Virus record (IMG/VR): IMGVR_UViG_3300011114_000209 | Span: 1 to 20,865 of that record | DNA from: a virus | DNA: 20,865 nt | Direction: 5' to 3' (one strand) | Shown: positions 1,115 through 11,664 of the stretch, in pieces | Layout of the letters: every line of letters starts with the position of its first letter | Position numbering within the stretch: position 1 is the stretch's first letter | Program-made: the position numbers and the translations under genes | Notes under the pieces: model-generated | Told to the model about the DNA's origin: nothing | The model's input: the letters and a program-made list of their open reading frames with translations, nothing else | Database searches by the model: none

Positions 1115-1729
1115 ATGGCTTTTACCAACTATACCAGTTTCGTGACTGTGGTAGAGAACTACCTTGCACGTACAGACTTGTCATCACAGATACCTGACTT
1201 TATTCAGTTAGCACAAACAAGAATGTCACGTGACTTAAGAACTGAAAAGATGTTAAAGGTAGCAACAGCTCCAATTACTTCAGGTGATGGTACATTAGCT
1301 GTGCCTTCTGATATGTTAGAAGTAAGAGAAATACATTTACAAGGTAACCCTCCTGTTATTTTAGAGTTTCAGTCACCAGACTTATTCTTTAAAAACTTTC
1401 AAACGTCATTATCAGGAAGACCATTTTATTTTACAATGCTAGGTTCAGAGTTCCAATTTGCGCCAAAACCTAATGGTAGCTTTACAGCACAAATTCTATA
1501 CTATGCACAACCTACATTTATATCAACAACAACAGCTAGTAACTTATATCTAGCTAATTACCCAGACGCTTTATTATATTCAACTCTAGCAGAAGCAGAG
1601 CCATATTTATTGAATGATGCACGTATTCAAACATGGTCAGCTTTATATGACAGAGCAATTGCTAATATTAAAACAAGCGACTTGGGTCAAACATACCCAT
1701 ACACTTCACTAAGCGTAACACCAAGATAA
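1115..1729 (+). CDS. Head-tail adaptor protein (SU10-adaptor-like)
   Basis: This 204-residue protein resembles the phage adaptor family found in podoviruses such as SU10. It begins with a short helical segment ('YTSFVTVVENYLARTDLSSQ', residues 6-25), then 'IPDFIQLAQTRMSRDLR', the hallmark helix of the family. A beta-rich part follows, with 'LAVPSDMLEVREIHL' and a late helical segment rich in Ala and Glu ('LAEAEPYLLND'). In this family the protein forms a ring below the portal that connects the head to the tail nozzle. ATG at 1115 follows a TAAGGA stop/ribosome-site fusion from the methyltransferase. It is the first clearly structural gene of the operon; the portal and capsid genes would be expected upstream of the window. 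Confidence 0.75.
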   Translation: MAFTNYTSFVTVVENYLARTDLSSQIPDFIQLAQTRMSRDLRTEKMLKVATAPITSGDGTLAVPSDMLEVREIHLQGNPPVILEFQSPDLFFKNFQTSLSGRPFYFTMLGSEFQFAPKPNGSFTAQILYYAQPTFISTTTASNLYLANYPDALLYSTLAEAEPYLLNDARIQTWSALYDRAIANIKTSDLGQTYPYTSLSVTPR

Positions 1730-1739
1730 GGACACTATT

Positions 1740-2132
1740 ATGGCAGAAATGAGTAACTACCTAGAGAACGCACTTTTAAATGCTACTCTAAACGGCACAA
1801 CATATACAGCACCAGCTAACGTATACGTATCACTATGGACAACAGACCCTACAGACGCAGGTACTGGTAATGAAGTTTCAGGTGGTTCATACGCTAGAAC
1901 TGAAATTACATTTGCTACAGCTTCAGGAACTTCAGGTCAAATATTAAATGACGCAGCAGTAGAATTTCCACAAGCTACAGCTTCATGGGGAACAGTTGCA
2001 TACTTTGGTATTAATGATGCTTCTTCAGGTGGTAACCTTTTATATCACTCACCATTAACTACTTCAAAAGCAATTGACACAGGCGATATTTTTAAATTCG
2101 CAGTAGGTTCAGTTTCAGTAACATTAGCTTAA
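1740..2132 (+). CDS. Gp80-like phage tail protein
   Basis: A 130-residue protein with the features of the small tail/fibre family often labelled Gp80-like: 'MSNYLENALLNATL' at the start, 'VYVSLWTTDPTDAG.GNEVSGGSYARTEI' in the middle, 'AVEFPQATASWGTVAYFGI.DA.SGGNLLY' and a terminal beta strand. It is probably an all-beta virion protein linked to tail fibres; the exact position in the particle is not known to me. TAAGGA of the previous gene supplies the ribosome site. Family match is good, function is inferred from relatives and from its place between the adaptor and the fibre genes. Confidence 0.65.
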   Translation: MAEMSNYLENALLNATLNGTTYTAPANVYVSLWTTDPTDAGTGNEVSGGSYARTEITFATASGTSGQILNDAAVEFPQATASWGTVAYFGINDASSGGNLLYHSPLTTSKAIDTGDIFKFAVGSVSVTLA

Positions 2133-2140
2133 GGTAAATT

Positions 2141-3115
2141 ATGCCAGTACCAATGACGCTAGAGCAACTAGACGTTTATGGTAGTTTGGAAAATGTACCA
2201 TATAGTTTAGATAATACATTTTATGATAATGGAACTACCATTTGTGGTCCTTGGACATTAGACCAGTTAGACGCATTTGGTAGTTTAGACGCATTAGCTA
2301 TTTCGCTAGATGACCCATTATGGACTACAGCAGCCTGTATTAATTTATCTACAGGCGCTATTACTTCAGATGCAAATGTAGTAGGTAATGCAGTAAGAAT
2401 AAGACAAAGCACAGGTGCTGTTACCGGTGACGCTTCAGTTACAGGAAATGGTATTAGAGTAGCTACAGGCGAAGGTGCAATTACTGCCAATGCTCAATTA
2501 GAAGGTAATGCTTCAAGAATTACATTTGATAGTGGTGCAATTACAGGCTCTGCCACAGTCGTTGGTAATGGTAATAGGGTAGCACTAGCATCAGGTGAAA
2601 TAAATGCGTTAGCAAGCGTTTCTGCAAGTCCTAGCGCTATTTATACATTCTCTGGAGCAATAACTGCTGAAGCTACAGTAACAGGAAATGGTGTTCGTTA
2701 CAGACTTTCTACAGGTTCTATCACAGGAAATGCTCAATTAGAGGGTGCTGGTGACAGAATTAGAACATTTGATGGCTCTATAGAAGGTTATGCTTCATTA
2801 GTAGGTCTAGGTGGCGTTCAATACGCAGGCAATGCTGACATTACATGTGAAGCAAGTCTAGTAGGTAACCCAAATTCAATTTGGTATGGCTTAGGAAGTA
2901 TTACAGGTAATGCCACAGTCACAGGTTTAGGTAAGATATTAGGTGAAGAATGGTCACCAGTTACACCAGGTTCAGAGTCATGGACTGACGTAACACCAAG
3001 TAGCGATACTTGGACGGAAATAACAGCAGGTGGTAGTTCATGGACTGATATAAGTTTTGGTTCAGACACATGGACAGCATCAAGTTCAAGCAACGATACA
3101 TGGGTAAATAGTTAA
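2141..3115 (+). CDS. Tandem-repeat virion protein (20-residue and 10-residue repeats)
   Basis: I do not recognise a named family for the whole 324-residue protein. It has three parts. Residues 6-61 hold two copies of a 'TLEQLDVYGSLENVPYSLD' motif (starting at residues 6 and 39). Residues 72-271 are ten consecutive 20-residue repeats without a single insertion or deletion, consensus roughly G-[AS]-I-T-x3-[AV]-x-[VL]-x-G-N-[AG]. Residues 271-320 are five 10-residue repeats beginning with Trp ('WTDVTPSSDT'). The repeat register suggests a beta-solenoid or stacked beta-strand fibre shaft, probably an accessory fibre or decoration. It sits among tail genes and follows a TAAGG ribosome site. The N-terminal motif is also present in the nozzle-like protein at 9014-10435, which hints at docking or common ancestry. 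Confidence 0.8.
   Translation: MPVPMTLEQLDVYGSLENVPYSLDNTFYDNGTTICGPWTLDQLDAFGSLDALAISLDDPLWTTAACINLSTGAITSDANVVGNAVRIRQSTGAVTGDASVTGNGIRVATGEGAITANAQLEGNASRITFDSGAITGSATVVGNGNRVALASGEINALASVSASPSAIYTFSGAITAEATVTGNGVRYRLSTGSITGNAQLEGAGDRIRTFDGSIEGYASLVGLGGVQYAGNADITCEASLVGNPNSIWYGLGSITGNATVTGLGKILGEEWSPVTPGSESWTDVTPSSDTWTEITAGGSSWTDISFGSDTWTASSSSNDTWVNS
2354..2953 (+). repeat. Ten in-frame 60-base degenerate tandem repeats
   Basis: Reading the protein from residue 72, each block of 20 residues begins with G-[AS/E]-I-T/N-like sequence (block 9 begins A-D-I-T) and carries a V/L-x-G/A-N-like centre. The ten blocks align end to end without gaps. The DNA copies are diverged, so these are old repeats kept by selection on the protein rather than recent expansions. 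Confidence 0.85.
2951..3100 (+). repeat. Five in-frame 30-base repeats encoding Trp-initiated decapeptides
   Basis: Starting at the Trp codon at 2951, Trp recurs exactly every ten residues: WSPVT, WTDVT, WTEIT, WTDIS, WTASS, and then a final WVNS just before the stop. Most units end in S-D-T or S-S. This forms a Ser/Thr-rich C-terminal tail with regularly spaced Trp residues. Confidence 0.85.
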
Positions 3116-3129
3116 TTTAAGGAACAATT

Positions 3130-3933
3130 ATGGCAAAAGATAAAATTAGTCAGTACGACTCAACAAGTGCTGGCGCAAATTTAAACACAGACATTGCAGG
3201 TATTAATATTGATGAGGGTTGCGCACCTTCAGGTATTAACAATGCTATTAGAACGCTAATGGCTCAAATTCGTGACTTGCAGTCAGGTGTGAGTGGCGAT
3301 ACTATTCCTGTAACAGCAGGTGGTACAGGTTCAGGTACAACTTCTTCAGCTAGAGCAGCTTTAGGTCTTGCTATTGGTACAGACGTATTAGCACCTCCTT
3401 CAGGCACAGCTATTCTAAAAGCTAATAGTGGTGGTGCATTAGCAAACGCTACAGCAGGTACAGACTATGTAGCTCCAGCCACAGCTACAACATTTACTGC
3501 TACTCAAACATTTACAGGTTCAACCACAGCTATTGCTGCAGTATTTCAAGATGCAGCAGAAGTAGCAACTGTATCAGCAACTGCAGCTACAGGTACTATT
3601 AACTATGATGCTACAACACAGTCTGTGTTATACTATACAACTAATGCTTCAGCTAACTGGACAGTAAACTTTAGAGGTAATGGTACAACATCTTTAAATA
3701 CGCTTATGTCTACAGGTCAAGCTATTACATTAGTATTTTTAGTATCACAAGGTGCTACTGCTTACTATAACAACGCAGTCACTATTGACGGTACATCTGT
3801 CACACCTAAATATCAAGGTGGCACAGCATGGTCTAGCGGTAATGCTTCAGGAATTGATGCTTACTCATATACCATTATTAAAACAGGTTCAGCAACATTC
3901 TCTGTATTCGCAGCTCAAACACAATTCAAATAG
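3130..3933 (+). CDS. Tail-fibre-like protein
   Basis: A 267-residue protein with the layout of many podovirus fibre proteins. The N-terminus 'KISQYDST......NTDIAGINIDEG..PSGINNAIRTLMAQI' (residues 5-47) is a common phage fibre start. The motif 'GGTGSGTTSSARAALGL' (64-80) and 'TAILKANSGGALANATAGTDYV' are typical of the fibre shaft. The last ~100 residues ('SVLYYTTNASANWTVNFRGN' to 'SVFAAQTQFK') form a beta-rich C-terminal domain that I recognise from fibre proteins of aquatic phages. It presumably trimerises and contacts the host or the neighbouring large fibre protein. It starts with ATG after 'TAAGGAACAATT'. The receptor is unknown. Confidence 0.65.
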   Translation: MAKDKISQYDSTSAGANLNTDIAGINIDEGCAPSGINNAIRTLMAQIRDLQSGVSGDTIPVTAGGTGSGTTSSARAALGLAIGTDVLAPPSGTAILKANSGGALANATAGTDYVAPATATTFTATQTFTGSTTAIAAVFQDAAEVATVSATAATGTINYDATTQSVLYYTTNASANWTVNFRGNGTTSLNTLMSTGQAITLVFLVSQGATAYYNNAVTIDGTSVTPKYQGGTAWSSGNASGIDAYSYTIIKTGSATFSVFAAQTQFK

Positions 3934-3942
3934 GAATTAACA

Positions 3943-6900
3943 ATGTCATTATTGTCAAGACTAGCCGTACAAGCCGCAAGAGCTTATGGTATCTTATCAG
4001 CCGCAGATAAAAATAAAGTAGTAGCTGACTACCTTGTAGTTGCAGGTGGAGGTGGTTCAGGAGGCGGTGGTGGTGGAGCAGGTGGCTATCAAACTTCTAC
4101 AGCAAATTTATCTACACTTAACACTTATTCTATTGCAGTAGGTGCAGGTGGTTCAGGTGTAGTTTGCGTTGGTGGAGGAACTTCTGGTATAGCTGGTTCT
4201 AATTCATCTATTTCAGGCACAGGATTATCTACTATTACTTCTGTTGGTGGTGGTTACGGAGGTGGTGGAGTTAATGGTGGTTCTGGTGGCTCTGGTGGTG
4301 GTTCTGGTTCATCAGGTAGTCTTGTTGGTGGAGGTTCAGGCACATCAGGTCAAGGTAATAATGGTGGAGGCAATGGTGGTTTTACTTCTTCTCCATTTCC
4401 AGCAGGTGGTGGTGGCGGTGCAGGTGCAGTAGGAGGTACAGCTACATCAACTACACAAGCAGGTAATGGTGGTGTTGGTTTAGCATCATCTATTTCAGGT
4501 TCTTCAGTTTATTATGCTGGTGGCGGTGGTGGTGGATATTATTCTACAGGTGGAACTGCTACAACTGGTGGTACTGGAGGTGGTGGAGCTGGTAATAGTA
4601 ATACAGGTAATGCAGTATCAGGAACTGCTAATACTGGAGGCGGTGGTGGTGGAACTGGTCCATCTTATTTAGGCGGTTCAGGCGGTTCAGGCATAGTCAT
4701 CATATCTTACACATCTGCTACACCTAAATTCGTAGGCGGCACAATTACTACTTCAGGTGGTAAACAAATACACACATTCACATCTTCAGGCACATTAAGC
4801 CCTATTACACCTATTACAGCTAGTTATTTAGTCGTAGCTGGTGGTGGTGGAGCAGTAGGTAACAGGTCAGGCGGTGGTGGTGCTGGTGGTTTACTTACAA
4901 GTTCTACTACACTCTATTCAGGTGCTACATACATTGTAACTGTAGGAGCAGGTGGAGCAGGTGGTGCTGGCAATGCAGCTGTAACTTCTACTCAAGATGG
5001 GTCTAACTCTGTATTATCAGGAACTGGTTTAACCACAATTACTGCTACAGGTGGTGGAGGTGGCGGTGGAACTAATAACCCATCAAGCGGAAGGTCTGGT
5101 GGTTCTGGCGGTGGTGCAGGTGGAGATAACGCTACAGGAGCTACAGGTGGAACAGGAACTTCTGGTCAAGGTTTTGCAGGTGGAACTTCAGCAGCTGGTG
5201 GTGGCGGTGGAGGCGGTGGTGCATCTGCTGTAGGTTCTAATGGTTCAAGTAATACTGGTGGTAATGGCGGTGCAGGCACAGCATCAAGTATTTCAGGCAC
5301 TTCAGTTACATACGCTGGCGGCGGTGGTGGCGGTGCTACTACTACTGCTGGAACTGGAGGTGCTGGTGGTGGAGGTAATGGTGCAGGTGGTTCTCCAACT
5401 ACACAATCACGAGGTGTTGATGGAACACAAAATTCAGGTGGTGGTGCTGGTGGTGGTTCTAACTATGTAACTACTGCAGTTACTCAAGCATCAGGTGGCT
5501 CTGGTATCGTTATCATCTCATACGCTGGCTCACAAGCATTTAACGGTGGTCTAGTCACATCATCAGGTGGTAACACTATCCACACATTTACTTCTACAGG
5601 TGCTTTAACACCATTAACAAATAACCTAACTAACTCTTTAAGGTTTAGAAGTAGTGCGAGTGCAAGACTATCAAGAACATTTGCAACTACAGGCACAAAC
5701 AATAAAATACAAACATTCTCTGCATGGGTAAAAAGAGGTCTATTAAGTAGTTCAACAACTTATAGACTAATGGGTTGCTATGATGGAAGTTCAGCTAACT
5801 CTACAGAAATTAACTTTAATAATGACACTTTAAGAATTGAATTTGGTGGTGCTGCATCTAATTCATTAATAACTACACAAGTATTTCGTGACCCTTCAGC
5901 TTGGTATCACATTGTAATTGCAATAGATACAACACAAGCTACTGCGGCTAACAGAATTAAAATGTATGTGAATGGTAACCAAATTACTGCATTTGGAACT
6001 GCAAACTATCCATCACAAAATGCTGCTTCACAATTAACAAGTGCAAATGCTAACAATTCTATTGGTGCAGGTTGGTCAGGCTTTGAATACTTTGACGGTT
6101 ACATGACTGACATTAACTTCATTGACGGTCAAGCACTAGAACCCTATTACTTTGGTAACAATGACGCTAATGGTGTATGGAAACCTATCCTATATAAAGG
6201 CACATACGGAACTAATGGTTTCTACTTAACATTTGGCAACACAACATCCACTACAACATTAGGCTATGACTCATCACCTAATGGCAATAATTGGACTTGT
6301 AACAATATTAGCTTAACTGCTGGCACAACTTATGATGCTATGACAGACGTGCCTACTAATACAAGTGCGACTGTGGCGAATTACCCAACGCTTAACCCAT
6401 TGTCAAATACTTCTACATTAACAGAGGCTAACTTAAGTGCATCTAACATATTACTTGCTGGCACTACAATGGCAACACCAAGCACAGGTAAATGGTATTT
6501 TGAATACACACAAACAACTTCTATCCCAAGTGGTTCATTATGGGTAGGTGTTTCATCTAATACTAATGCTGTAGCAGATAACCAATTACAAGGTTATTCA
6601 TACGCAAGTGATGGTCGTAAAGTAGCATATAATTCTTATACATCAGGTTATGGTTCAACATGGACTAATGGTGATGTTATTGGTTGTGCATTAGACTTGG
6701 ATAACCAAACAATTACATTCTATAAAAACAATGTAAGTCAAGGAACAGCATTTACAAGTATTACTGCTCAACCTTATGTATTTGCTTTATCAGCAGGTGG
6801 TGCAGCTTCTACTAAAGGTGGTTCTATAAATTGTGGTCAAAGACCATTTGCATACACACCACCTACAGGCTTTGTAGCACTAAACACATATAATTTACCT

Positions 6901-7926
6901 ACACCTACTATATTGCAAGGTAATAAGTATATGGATGCAACATTGTGGACAGGTAATGCAACAACAAATGTAATAGTTAATCAAAGTCAATTTAAACCTG
7001 ACTTTGCATGGATTAAAGGTAGAGGTAACGCTGAAAATCATGCACTATTTGACTCTGTTCGTGGAGCTAATAAAAATTTAGCGTCTAATACAACAGCTAT
7101 TGAAGGCACTCAAACTGACATGCTTATGTCATTTAATTCTAATGGCTTTACATTAGGAGCAGATGGTAATTGGCAAGTAAATAAAGCCGCTACAACTTAT
7201 GTAGGTTGGCAATGGCAAGCTGGTCAAGGCTCAACATCATCTAACACTTCAGGCTCTATTACATCTACTGTATCTGTAAACACAACTGCTGGGTTTAGTG
7301 TGGTGACTTATACAGGAAATGGAACAACTGGAGCTACTATTGGTCATGGATTGGGTGTTGTTCCTAAAATGATAATTTTTAAAGATAGAGATAGTGTTAC
7401 AAATTGGCCTGTATATCATGTTTCATTAGGTAATGCTACAGCAGTTAATGTAAACCAAACAAATGCTTCTTTTGCTTCATCATCATTTAATAGCACAACG
7501 CCAACATCTACATTAATTACTCTTGGTGGAAATGGATTAGATGTAAATAATACTAGTAAAAAAATGTTAGCTTATTGCTGGGCAGAAATAAATGGATTTA
7601 GTAAATTTGGTTCTTACACAGGTAATGGTTCTGCTGATGGTAGCCTAATTTACACTGGCTTTAAACCTAAATTTATTATGATAAAATGTACAGATACTGC
7701 TGGAACTGCGTGGGTTACTTATGATACAGCTAGAGATACATATAATGTAGCTGGTAATATTCTATTGCCAAATAGCAGTAGTGCAGAATTATCAGGATAT
7801 TCTTTAGATATATTATCTAATGGCTTTAAACATAGACAAGGTGGTGGTGACCCAAATGCTTCAGGAAGAAATTATATATATGCTTGCTGGGCATCTAACC
7901 CATTTAAGAGTAGCAATGCGGTTTGA
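3943..7926 (+). CDS. Large multidomain tail fibre/adhesin (Gly-rich, LamG-like, SPRY-like, DUF7483-like)
   Basis: A 1327-residue protein read as a host-binding fibre. After a short helical N-terminus (1-25) come two long glycine-rich units (about 30-293 and 294-560), each opening with 'YLVVAGGGG' and closing with 'GGSGIVIISY' then 'IHTFTS.G.L'. Next is a concanavalin/LamG-like domain (about 565-741, with 'TFSAWVKRG', 'WYHIVIAIDTT', 'RIKMYVNGNQI'). A SPRY-like domain follows (about 820-985, with 'GKWYFEYTQ', 'GDVIGCALDLDNQTITFYKN'). Residues 988-1327 form three repeats like DUF7483, each ending near an aromatic/Cys 'Y.CWA' type strand. These folds bind glycans or proteins in other systems, so a receptor-binding role fits, but the target is unknown. 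The last ~600 bases look more AT-rich than the rest and adjoin an endonuclease gene. Confidence 0.75.
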   Translation: MSLLSRLAVQAARAYGILSAADKNKVVADYLVVAGGGGSGGGGGGAGGYQTSTANLSTLNTYSIAVGAGGSGVVCVGGGTSGIAGSNSSISGTGLSTITSVGGGYGGGGVNGGSGGSGGGSGSSGSLVGGGSGTSGQGNNGGGNGGFTSSPFPAGGGGGAGAVGGTATSTTQAGNGGVGLASSISGSSVYYAGGGGGGYYSTGGTATTGGTGGGGAGNSNTGNAVSGTANTGGGGGGTGPSYLGGSGGSGIVIISYTSATPKFVGGTITTSGGKQIHTFTSSGTLSPITPITASYLVVAGGGGAVGNRSGGGGAGGLLTSSTTLYSGATYIVTVGAGGAGGAGNAAVTSTQDGSNSVLSGTGLTTITATGGGGGGGTNNPSSGRSGGSGGGAGGDNATGATGGTGTSGQGFAGGTSAAGGGGGGGGASAVGSNGSSNTGGNGGAGTASSISGTSVTYAGGGGGGATTTAGTGGAGGGGNGAGGSPTTQSRGVDGTQNSGGGAGGGSNYVTTAVTQASGGSGIVIISYAGSQAFNGGLVTSSGGNTIHTFTSTGALTPLTNNLTNSLRFRSSASARLSRTFATTGTNNKIQTFSAWVKRGLLSSSTTYRLMGCYDGSSANSTEINFNNDTLRIEFGGAASNSLITTQVFRDPSAWYHIVIAIDTTQATAANRIKMYVNGNQITAFGTANYPSQNAASQLTSANANNSIGAGWSGFEYFDGYMTDINFIDGQALEPYYFGNNDANGVWKPILYKGTYGTNGFYLTFGNTTSTTTLGYDSSPNGNNWTCNNISLTAGTTYDAMTDVPTNTSATVANYPTLNPLSNTSTLTEANLSASNILLAGTTMATPSTGKWYFEYTQTTSIPSGSLWVGVSSNTNAVADNQLQGYSYASDGRKVAYNSYTSGYGSTWTNGDVIGCALDLDNQTITFYKNNVSQGTAFTSITAQPYVFALSAGGAASTKGGSINCGQRPFAYTPPTGFVALNTYNLPTPTILQGNKYMDATLWTGNATTNVIVNQSQFKPDFAWIKGRGNAENHALFDSVRGANKNLASNTTAIEGTQTDMLMSFNSNGFTLGADGNWQVNKAATTYVGWQWQAGQGSTSSNTSGSITSTVSVNTTAGFSVVTYTGNGTTGATIGHGLGVVPKMIIFKDRDSVTNWPVYHVSLGNATAVNVNQTNASFASSSFNSTTPTSTLITLGGNGLDVNNTSKKMLAYCWAEINGFSKFGSYTGNGSADGSLIYTGFKPKFIMIKCTDTAGTAWVTYDTARDTYNVAGNILLPNSSSAELSGYSLDILSNGFKHRQGGGDPNASGRNYIYACWASNPFKSSNAV
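4030..5620 (+). repeat. Two tandem ~800-base glycine-rich units inside the fibre gene
   Basis: Unit 1 begins near 4030 and unit 2 near 4824; both start with codons for YLVVAGGGG and both end with GGSGIVIISY followed by a GGK/GGN-x-IHTFTS stretch. The DNA is dominated by GGT, GGA, GGC and GCA triplets. The units differ in detail, so this is an older internal duplication with drift. Confidence 0.7.
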
Positions 7927-8639
7927 TGGGTAAACTTATAGACATGATGGGTAAGAAGTTTAATAGACTTACCATTGTTTCTAGAGCTGCTAATGAAAAT
8001 ACAAGAGCAGCGTGGAATTGTATTTGTGACTGTGGCAACACTATAACTCTTAATGGCAAGCAAATAAGAAGTGGTCATACAAAGTCATGTGGTTGCTATC
8101 GTAAAGAAGTAACTTCTAGTCAAGGCTATAAGAATAAATATAGTATTGAATATGTTAAGGCAAAAATAAAAGAAAATGGTTTTGAGTTGCTTTCTGAATA
8201 CAAAGGTATACTAAAACAAGGTAAGTTTAGATGTTTATGCTGTAAACTTGAGTTTACTAGAAAAGTTGCTACATCACTAAATAATACAAGTGGATGCCCT
8301 AGCTGTTCTAAACTTAACAATGGTTTCATGCAAGCAGATACTTTTGAAAGAAAGCCACACTTAAAAGAATTAGACTCTCGTTTATATCTTATGGAGTTTG
8401 ATAATGGTATAGAACACTTTTGGAAACTTGGTATTACTAGACAAAAGTTACATGATAGAATTAGAAAGATACCTTATAAATTAGTATCTATTCAAACTAT
8501 TAGTGGTAAATTGTATGAAATATACAAAGCAGAAAAGATGTTAAAGCAACAAAATAAACAACACAGATATAGACCTAAAACATATTTTGCTGGTCATACT
8601 GAATGTTTCTCTAAATTAATTAATATAGGATGGAATTAA
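7926..8639 (+). CDS. Free-standing homing-type endonuclease, zinc fingers plus GIY-YIG-like domain
   Basis: A 237-residue protein if started at ATG 7926, which shares the TGATG with the stop of the fibre gene; this keeps the usual 'LIDMMGKKFNRLTIV' opening. Residues 32-57 carry 'CICDCG' and 'SCGC', the Cys cluster typical of phage homing endonuclease DNA-binding ends. A second cluster is 'CLCC' (103-106) and 'CPSC' (124-127). The C-terminal part looks like a GIY-YIG/T5orf172-like nuclease: Tyr154 ('LYLMEF'), 'WKLGIT' (166-171), Arg178, Glu203 and 'TECF' near the end. Such genes cut an empty site in a related phage so that they are copied in. Hand counts on sample lines show lower GC (16/60) than the gene after it (23-26/60), in line with separate origin. 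Nuclease type is good, activity is inferred. Confidence 0.75.
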   Translation: MGKLIDMMGKKFNRLTIVSRAANENTRAAWNCICDCGNTITLNGKQIRSGHTKSCGCYRKEVTSSQGYKNKYSIEYVKAKIKENGFELLSEYKGILKQGKFRCLCCKLEFTRKVATSLNNTSGCPSCSKLNNGFMQADTFERKPHLKELDSRLYLMEFDNGIEHFWKLGITRQKLHDRIRKIPYKLVSIQTISGKLYEIYKAEKMLKQQNKQHRYRPKTYFAGHTECFSKLINIGWN

Positions 8640-9013: not shown

Positions 9014-10435
9014 ATGCCTACCCAAAGAATACAATTTACAGAGTGGTTACCAGACCAACCTACGACTACTGGAGCTTTGCTAGAAGCTAATAATGTCTAT
9101 CCTTTAACGATAGGTTATGGTCCGTTTCCATTATCTGCTGACTATTCTGGTGCTGCGAGTGAAAACCTAAACAATGTAACTGCTGCTAAATTTGAATTAA
9201 GCACAGTATTATTTGCAGGTGGCACTACTAAACTATTTAAGTTTAACCCAGCTACTGCAGCTTTAGACAATGTATCTAAAACAGGTGGCTATAGTGGTGC
9301 AGACCGTTGGAGCTTTACACAATTTGGTAACGCTGTATTAGCTTCTAATAACCAGTCTAAAATACAAGCATGGTATGTAGGCACTTCTACTGCTTTTGCA
9401 GACGTATCTGCTACAGCTCCTATCGCTAAATACATTACAGTAGTTCGTGACTTTGTAGTCGCTGCTAACATTAACGGTACAGCTAATAAACTACAATGGT
9501 CAGACATTAATGACGAGACTGACTGGACTTCAGGTGGTGCATCACAAGCTGACTATCAAATTTTAGCAGAAGGTGGAAACATTACCGGTATTACAGGTGG
9601 TGAATTTGGTATCGTCTTACTAGAACGTGCTATTTACCGTATGTCATATATTGGTTCACCATTATTCTTCCAATTTGACGCTATCTCACGTAATTTAGGT
9701 TGTAATACACCAGGTTCTATTACACAATATGGACCTAATACATACTTCTTAGCTGATGACGGTTTCTATGCGTGTGATGGTACTAATGTCTATAACATTG
9801 GTAACGATAAAGTAGACGAATACTTCTACGAAAACATGGCTTTAGCACAACAAGACACTATTAGTGCTGCTATTGACCCTATTCGTAATATTGTGGTATG
9901 GAATTATCCTAATACTAACGGTGGTCGTTCATTACTTATTTACAATTGGCTAGTTAAAAAATGGTCATCTGCTGACACTACAGTAGAATACATTGTATCT
10001 TTAGCGTCTTCTTCTATCACATTAGAAGGTTTAGATGCTTATGGAACATTAGACTCACTTCCTGCATCTTTAGACTCACGTGTATGGTCAGGTGGTAAGT
10101 TCTTATTTGGTGGTGCAGACGGTGCTAAAATTGCAACATTTACAGGTTCTAACTCTACAGGTTCTATCGTAGTAGGTGAAATGGAATTTGGTTATAACTC
10201 TATAGTGACTAATGCAAGGGCGCAAGTAGATAACGGTGCTTGTACTATGGCTATATCATCACGTAAAGAATTAAATGGCAATATAAATTACAGTTCTACA
10301 GTTACACAAAATTCTAATGGTACATGTCCATTACGTTCTTATGGTCGCTATCATAGAATTAGAGTCACACCTACAGGTTCATGGTCACATGCTATATCTA
10401 TAGACGTAGACTACACACAAAGTGGGAATAGATAA
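9014..10435 (+). CDS. Tail nozzle/stabilisation protein (P22 gp10-like beta-propeller)
   Basis: A 473-residue protein resembling the P22 gp10 'phage stabilisation' family and the nozzle proteins of SU10-type phages. The start 'RIQFTEWLPDQP....GALLEANNVYP' and the later 'F....LL.ERAIYRMSYIG.P..FQFDAISRNLGC' and 'YFLADDGFYACDG....NIGNDKVDEYF' are typical. Repeated blades ('KLFKFNP', 'KLQWSDINDETDW', 'RNIVVWNYP', 'LLIYNWLVKKW') support a beta-propeller. In relatives it forms the ring that closes the tail channel and holds the fibres. Residues 336-358 contain a 'LDAYGTLDSLPASLD' motif shared with the repeat protein at 2141-3115. ATG 9014 follows TAAGGA; an overlapping ATG at 9010 is in another frame. 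Confidence 0.65.
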   Translation: MPTQRIQFTEWLPDQPTTTGALLEANNVYPLTIGYGPFPLSADYSGAASENLNNVTAAKFELSTVLFAGGTTKLFKFNPATAALDNVSKTGGYSGADRWSFTQFGNAVLASNNQSKIQAWYVGTSTAFADVSATAPIAKYITVVRDFVVAANINGTANKLQWSDINDETDWTSGGASQADYQILAEGGNITGITGGEFGIVLLERAIYRMSYIGSPLFFQFDAISRNLGCNTPGSITQYGPNTYFLADDGFYACDGTNVYNIGNDKVDEYFYENMALAQQDTISAAIDPIRNIVVWNYPNTNGGRSLLIYNWLVKKWSSADTTVEYIVSLASSSITLEGLDAYGTLDSLPASLDSRVWSGGKFLFGGADGAKIATFTGSNSTGSIVVGEMEFGYNSIVTNARAQVDNGACTMAISSRKELNGNINYSSTVTQNSNGTCPLRSYGRYHRIRVTPTGSWSHAISIDVDYTQSGNR

Positions 10436-11265: not shown

Positions 11266-11664
11266 ATGATATTACACTATATACCTAAAGATAATTTACG
11301 TCAACATTGGGACTATGTAAAACATGGTCTTGAATTAGTAAGACAACGTGGTCATACATCTTGGATAGTAGAAGATGTTTACTGTGACTGTTATGAAAAT
11401 AGGTCTATGTTATTTGTAGGCATTATTAATAACAAAGCAGTAGGTTTCGTAGTATTACAACCATTAGGAGACACACTTCATGTATGGGCTTCTTGGTCTA
11501 CTATTAATGACCAAACACTTTTTCATCAAGCATGGCAAGAAATACAACAAATAGCAAAACAAGGCGGTAAGACTAAAGTTACATTCAATTCACAAAGAAA
11601 AGGATGGGAACGTAGAGCTAGACAAATGGGTTTTAAACCTCAAACATGGGAATATACGTTATAA
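11266..11664 (+). CDS. GNAT-fold acetyltransferase-like protein
   Basis: A 132-residue protein with the strand-helix order of the GNAT superfamily: N-terminal 'HWDYVKHGLELVRQRG', central strands 'SMLFVGIINNKAVGFVVLQPLGD', a helix 'FHQAWQEIQQIAKQGG' and the final 'KVTFNSQRKGWERRARQMGFKPQTWEYTL', in which the 'R.GF......Y' ending is usual for the fold. No clear Q/RxxGxG/A acetyl-CoA loop is visible, so catalysis is uncertain. Similar small GNAT-like genes are common within phage structural operons, sometimes as virion parts. The ribosome site TAGG is only a few bases before ATG 11266. Confidence 0.55.
   Translation: MILHYIPKDNLRQHWDYVKHGLELVRQRGHTSWIVEDVYCDCYENRSMLFVGIINNKAVGFVVLQPLGDTLHVWASWSTINDQTLFHQAWQEIQQIAKQGGKTKVTFNSQRKGWERRARQMGFKPQTWEYTL

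Follow-up and report, generated by a model that had tools for sequence, protein, structure and literature searches.

Genomic context of the repeat gene

The window analysed here is the whole 20,865-base stretch of an IMG/VR virus record, and contains a tail cluster in which the gene for a repeat protein lies beside adaptor, fibre, and nozzle genes (Table 1). Three of these neighbours, the genes starting at 1115, 1740, and 9014, are homologues of the adaptor, fibre I, and nozzle of GP4-type podophage tails (fibre I gp80, PF23140, 8jou; nozzle 8zkk/8zkm). Wherever a compared locus has both fibre I and nozzle (113 loci/records compared), the repeat gene lies between the two, and the complete 35-kb genomes of C72C1 and MW202462 have no other gene in that interval. 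From this gene position, we infer that the protein is located in the tail of the virion.

Two further genes were noted in the cluster. An HNH-endonuclease-type ORF (7923-8639), found in only four of the compared loci, is encoded between the large fibre gene and a gene at 8630, and is possibly a mobile insertion. A small acetyltransferase-like gene occupies positions 11266-11664, and its MW202481 homologue is annotated as an acetyltransferase.

Table 1 Features of the repeat gene and the surrounding tail cluster, in window positions
Feature	Position	Strand	Evidence and remarks
Tail adaptor	1115..1729	+	SU10 adaptor family PF24175, E 4e-32
Podophage GP4 fibre I homologue	1740..2132	+	PF23140, PDB 8jou; E 4.2e-51; 1.7e-18
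Repeat-rod protein, whole	2141..3115	+	324 aa; relatives compared in 113 loci/records
N-terminal motif copy 1, proposed anchor	2156..2224	+	aa 6-28, TLEQLDVYGSLENVPYSLDNTFY
N-terminal motif copy 2	2252..2323	+	aa 38-61, WTLDQLDAFGSLDALAISLDDPLW
Ten 20-residue units, proposed beta-solenoid shaft	2339..2938	+	aa 67-266; self-comparison, AF2 of homologous L041 region
Trp ladder	2951..3103	+	Six Trp, aa 271-321, exact 10-residue spacing
Fibre-like protein	3130..3933	+	phrog_5906 (unknown function); weak phrog_24210 tail fiber; in 95/113 loci/records
Virion structural/tail fibre protein, 1,327 aa	3943..7926	+	phrog_19943, E 3e-178; phrog_24898 tail fiber, E 8e-84
Tail nozzle protein	9014..10435	+	Profile match to nozzle chains 8zkm, 8zkk, E 2e-21
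Motif copy inside nozzle	10019..10090	+	Nozzle aa 336-359, TLEGLDAYGTLDSLPASLDSRVWS

Two repeat periods in one protein

The protein consists of three parts: an N-terminal segment (aa 1-66), the unit region, and the Trp ladder. When the unit region was compared with itself against a background of 1,000 shuffles, lags 20, 40, and 60 stood out (z = 12.5 with 64 identities, 12.6, and 11.4), while the best lag beyond these reached only z = 4.6. The ten gapless 20-residue repeats of the original prediction are thus borne out across aa 67-266; the start given there, position 2354, falls within the first unit, and both the ORF and its N-terminal module begin further upstream. The five 10-residue Trp repeats claimed to follow were likewise recovered, as tryptophans at aa 271, 281, 291, 301, 311, and 321 bound five exact 10-residue intervals (lag 10 z = 9.5).

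At the DNA level, Tandem Repeats Finder detected no tandem repeat in the ORF region, and the units have therefore diverged. Self-comparison was also used to look for a 10-residue sub-period within the 20-residue units, and none was seen. The period of 20 differs from the 15-residue repeat of the triple beta-spiral (adenovirus-type shaft), as lag 15 does not rank in the top ten for the unit region, and lags 5, 10, and 15, which would mark the five-residue periodicity of pentapeptide-repeat proteins, are all missing from that top ten.

Across the units scored, position 8 is I or V in 654 of 654 and position 6 is A or G in 648 of 654, a pattern typical of buried residues. The conserved small or aliphatic positions 6, 8, 10, 12, 14, and 16 alternate, as expected if they form an inward-facing row; the least variable from phage to phage are positions 8 and 12. 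The Trp ladder is regular as well: spacing is 10 in all 455 cases from 94 distinct relatives, and the first Trp is found 5 residues past the last unit in 91 of the 94. Such strong conservation is unusual for a host-specific tip and counts against the fibre or spike reading proposed below.

Relatives differ in length by whole units

Relatives were collected in two partly overlapping IMG/VR scans of 80 loci each. The window protein has no significant sequence match in Pfam, NCBIfam, or the PDB, and PHROG gave no useful family; PDB sequence searches of the repeat protein matched no solved chain, those of GP4-type tails included. A scan of bacterial and archaeal genomes with search patterns drawn solely from the Trp ladder returned no relative.

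Of the 591 unit spacings in distinct proteins from the first scan, 564 are exactly 20 residues and the other 27 are 21; a protein with a spacing of 21 has just one, and belongs to the type whose N-terminus reads MFGISAFSQ. The additional loci contributed 249 spacings of 20 and seven of 21, along with a few of 40 or 26 that seem to be sites where a degenerate unit fell below score. The unit profile used for these counts was trained on the same proteins, yet imposes no spacing. Relatives with different unit numbers, which the original prediction had proposed to look for, were found (about 3, 8, 9, 10, 11, 12, 14, and 15 units), and they keep the 20-residue spacing, whose loss in relatives would have spoken against the prediction. 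The smallest members, L164 and L165, are 117-aa miniatures with approximately three units and a ladder of four Trp.

Proteins with 14 units fall into two groups, each with four whole units more than their 10-unit relatives, lying at different places, and the extra four most resemble units two positions away. In the A type (L034, L038, L033, L041, and L042), unit counts change in steps of four, and a unit resembles the one two positions along more than the one next to it. Four-unit differences combined with likeness at two positions suggest, as far as sequence comparison goes, that length may change by copying of 40-residue pieces.

The arrays appear to be long established. When units are compared across phages, those with the same index share 11.8 of 20 residues on average vs. 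6.8 of 20 for different indices, which indicates that these phages separated after most of the array had formed. By simple counting, dN/dS is 0.30-0.49 in the units, 0.14-0.43 in the Trp ladder, and 0.01-0.20 in aa 1-66, making the N-terminus the most constrained part of the protein. The view of the repeats as old and selected holds on both the index comparison and the unit dN/dS. Constraint on the N-terminus would be compatible with a putative homotrimer attached to the tail by that end.

Predicted fold of the unit region

AF2 modelled the whole window protein poorly (pLDDT 44.8, 41 alignment rows), with a pLDDT of ~26 for the predicted Trp ladder, and Foldseek searches with this model gave weak beta-helix matches only. 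Because of the pLDDT of 45, the whole-protein model was not used for fold assignment. The ten units of one relative, L041, were modelled with much higher confidence (pLDDT 80.3, pTM 0.77, 87 alignment rows) as a regular beta-solenoid with one coil per 20-residue unit, in which three short strands per unit recur every 20 residues; the sequence modelled with confidence is thus the relative's and not that of the window protein.

Foldseek on the L041 model returned nothing at E ≤ 0.001 in the PDB or BFVD. With VIA-align 2, solved beta-helices and synthetic solenoids ranked first, including tapirin chain 6n2c_B (Z 15.6, rmsd 2.2 Å over 190 residues) and the synthetic solenoid 4yei_A (Z 14.8). The C-terminal beta-helix of tapirin (6n2c, 6n2b, 4wa0) and the synthetic solenoid Beta1 (4yei) are the closest solved folds (Z 14.6-15.6), although at 13-17% sequence identity this is a likeness of fold that implies no common function.

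The original prediction was of a solenoid or stacked fibre with one turn per unit. A solenoid is supported by the L041 model, and the contrary outcome named at the time, a globular fold without a repeating unit, was not found; the predicted architecture is very likely correct. Since no confident model of the Trp ladder was obtained, the relation between its 10-residue period and the 20-residue period of the units remains numerical.

A motif shared by the N-terminus and the nozzle

The N-terminal segment contains two copies of a motif of the form TLxQLDxxGSLDxLxxSLDxxxW, and a further copy is found inside the nozzle protein encoded in the same cluster (Table 1). Copy 1 aligns with the nozzle at a local score of 71, compared with a maximum of 50 in 2,000 shuffles; copy 2 scores 71 against the nozzle and 64 against copy 1, and 0 of 2,000 shuffles scored as high. 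A search with the N-terminus alone returned nozzle genes (L247-L250), and scanning the loci located the motif only in the repeat protein, the nozzle, and truncated copies. The N-termini of relatives comprise several unrelated types, for example MFGISAFSQxPFSSL, and these other types lack the nozzle motif. Aligned nozzles keep a version of the 24-residue motif, even in phages whose repeat protein is without it.

Relatives in cultured phages and complete genomes

Several named proteins share the repeat architecture. Gp59 of Methylophilales phage MEP401 (OP830906, annotated “tail protein”; L253:3106-3921) is encoded directly downstream of the fibre I homologue and has the 20-residue units (lag 20 z = 9.8, lag 40 z = 11.0), which are 26% identical to those of relative L042. 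It differs from the window protein in its N-terminus, which represents a third type, and in its C-terminal tryptophans (aa 237, 250, and 263), which are 13 residues apart rather than 10. The best reading of this 13-residue ladder, judged on the sequences, is that the Trp-rich C-terminal module would be exchangeable.

Gp51 of Methylophilales phage Venkman (MT375522; L084:5926-6642), whose gene is close to the nozzle gene, has the 20-residue units and a 10-residue ladder of four Trp, but differs in its B-type N-terminus, its length of 238 aa, and its fewer units. Its label “putative E3 ubiquitin-protein ligase HERC6” is apparently a misannotation to which the repeats gave rise. The host of Venkman is an OM43 Methylophilales strain; TEM showed the phage to have a short, podovirus-like tail, yet it is classed as a siphovirus (PMC8163748). 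C72C1 CDS0008 and the MW202462 “serine-rich adhesin” share the LD-rich N-terminus, the 20-residue units, and the 10-residue Trp ladder, although the C72C1 protein is only 25.6% identical and shows weaker periodicity (z = 4.9).

Proposed role and alternative explanations

We consider the protein to be probably a structural part of a short-tailed phage tail, most likely a three-module fibre or spike subunit with an N-terminal anchor, a solenoid shaft, and a Trp-ladder end. The first ~66 residues would anchor the rod to the tail with the N-terminus directed inward, the ten units are predicted to wind into a beta-solenoid shaft in which each unit is one coil, and the C-terminal ladder would cap, oligomerise, or tip the rod. 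Gain or loss of whole units would alter rod length and leave the fold unchanged. The anchor-shaft-tip layout favours a fibre or spike component, and as the number of coils in relatives ranges from about 3 to 15, the protein is most likely a tail rod whose length can be adjusted. Its gene belongs to the tail cluster, near those for adaptor, fibre, and nozzle, and a constant repeat that equals one coil is present both in the sequence period and in the L041 model. The repeat family would thus belong with the known phage beta-solenoid tail proteins, and is not a new kind.

Phage fibres are usually trimers, and the units could instead form an intertwined trimeric beta-fibre (a triple-stranded beta-helix or prism), with the Trp ladder likewise a trimeric prism; the protein would still be a tail fibre. 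The poor monomer model of the full window protein is consistent with such an arrangement, as is the 10-residue repeat, which is short for a single-chain solenoid coil, and monomer AlphaFold models of obligate trimeric solenoids are reported to fail and can mislead (PMC10584680). We nevertheless regard an intertwined trimer as on the unlikely side, if a serious contender, given that the relative's unit region is confidently modelled as a single-chain solenoid (pLDDT 80) and that many solved single-chain beta-helices can be aligned with this model over 160-200 residues. A more distant idea is a closed beta-flower or Tubby-like barrel in which each unit would be a beta-hairpin petal. Relative L042 does exceed the cut-off of the corresponding Pfam entry PF21786 (40.4 vs. 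34 bits, E 3.4e-10), whose domain has six petals in ~125 residues, but L042 is alone in doing so: four other relatives are below the cut-off and the window protein has no match at E ≤ 1. The number of petals in published beta-flowers is four to six (PMC10584680), compared with ten units here and about 3 to 15 in relatives, and the L041 model, in which each unit contributes three short strands, matches parallel beta-helices in structural alignment. Membership in this family was rejected on both cut-off and petal number, and the barrel is highly improbable.

The remaining alternative concerns function rather than fold. The protein might be an assembly scaffold, ruler, or plug at the adaptor-nozzle junction and not a receptor-binding fibre, its N-terminal motif filling a nozzle site during assembly. 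The motif common to both proteins, the identity of the neighbouring genes, the strong conservation of N-terminus and ladder, and the retention of the repeat gene even where a large dedicated fibre gene (3943-7926) is present are all in line with this. Changing length in whole coils and having a choice of N- and C-terminal modules are traits more typical of fibres, however, and the other N-terminal types are without the motif, so that we find a scaffold, ruler, or plug rather unlikely.

Within the preferred reading, a fibre or spike subunit, the shared motif raises the tentative possibility that length-adjustable tail rods dock through copies of a nozzle segment, a piece of the nozzle having been re-used as an anchor, with interchangeable anchors and Trp-ladder tips on one solenoid shaft.

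Significance

Members of the family are found repeatedly, in many phages from the environment as well as in cultured phages of Methylophilales (OM43). The cultured members bear misleading names, Pfam and NCBIfam have no entry that matches the window protein, and rods of this kind are barely covered by protein-family databases. The motif shared with the nozzle provides a concrete, testable idea of how such rods may be anchored. Because length changes by whole coils, the relatives form a natural series, from about 3 to 15, for testing rod length in a short-tailed phage.
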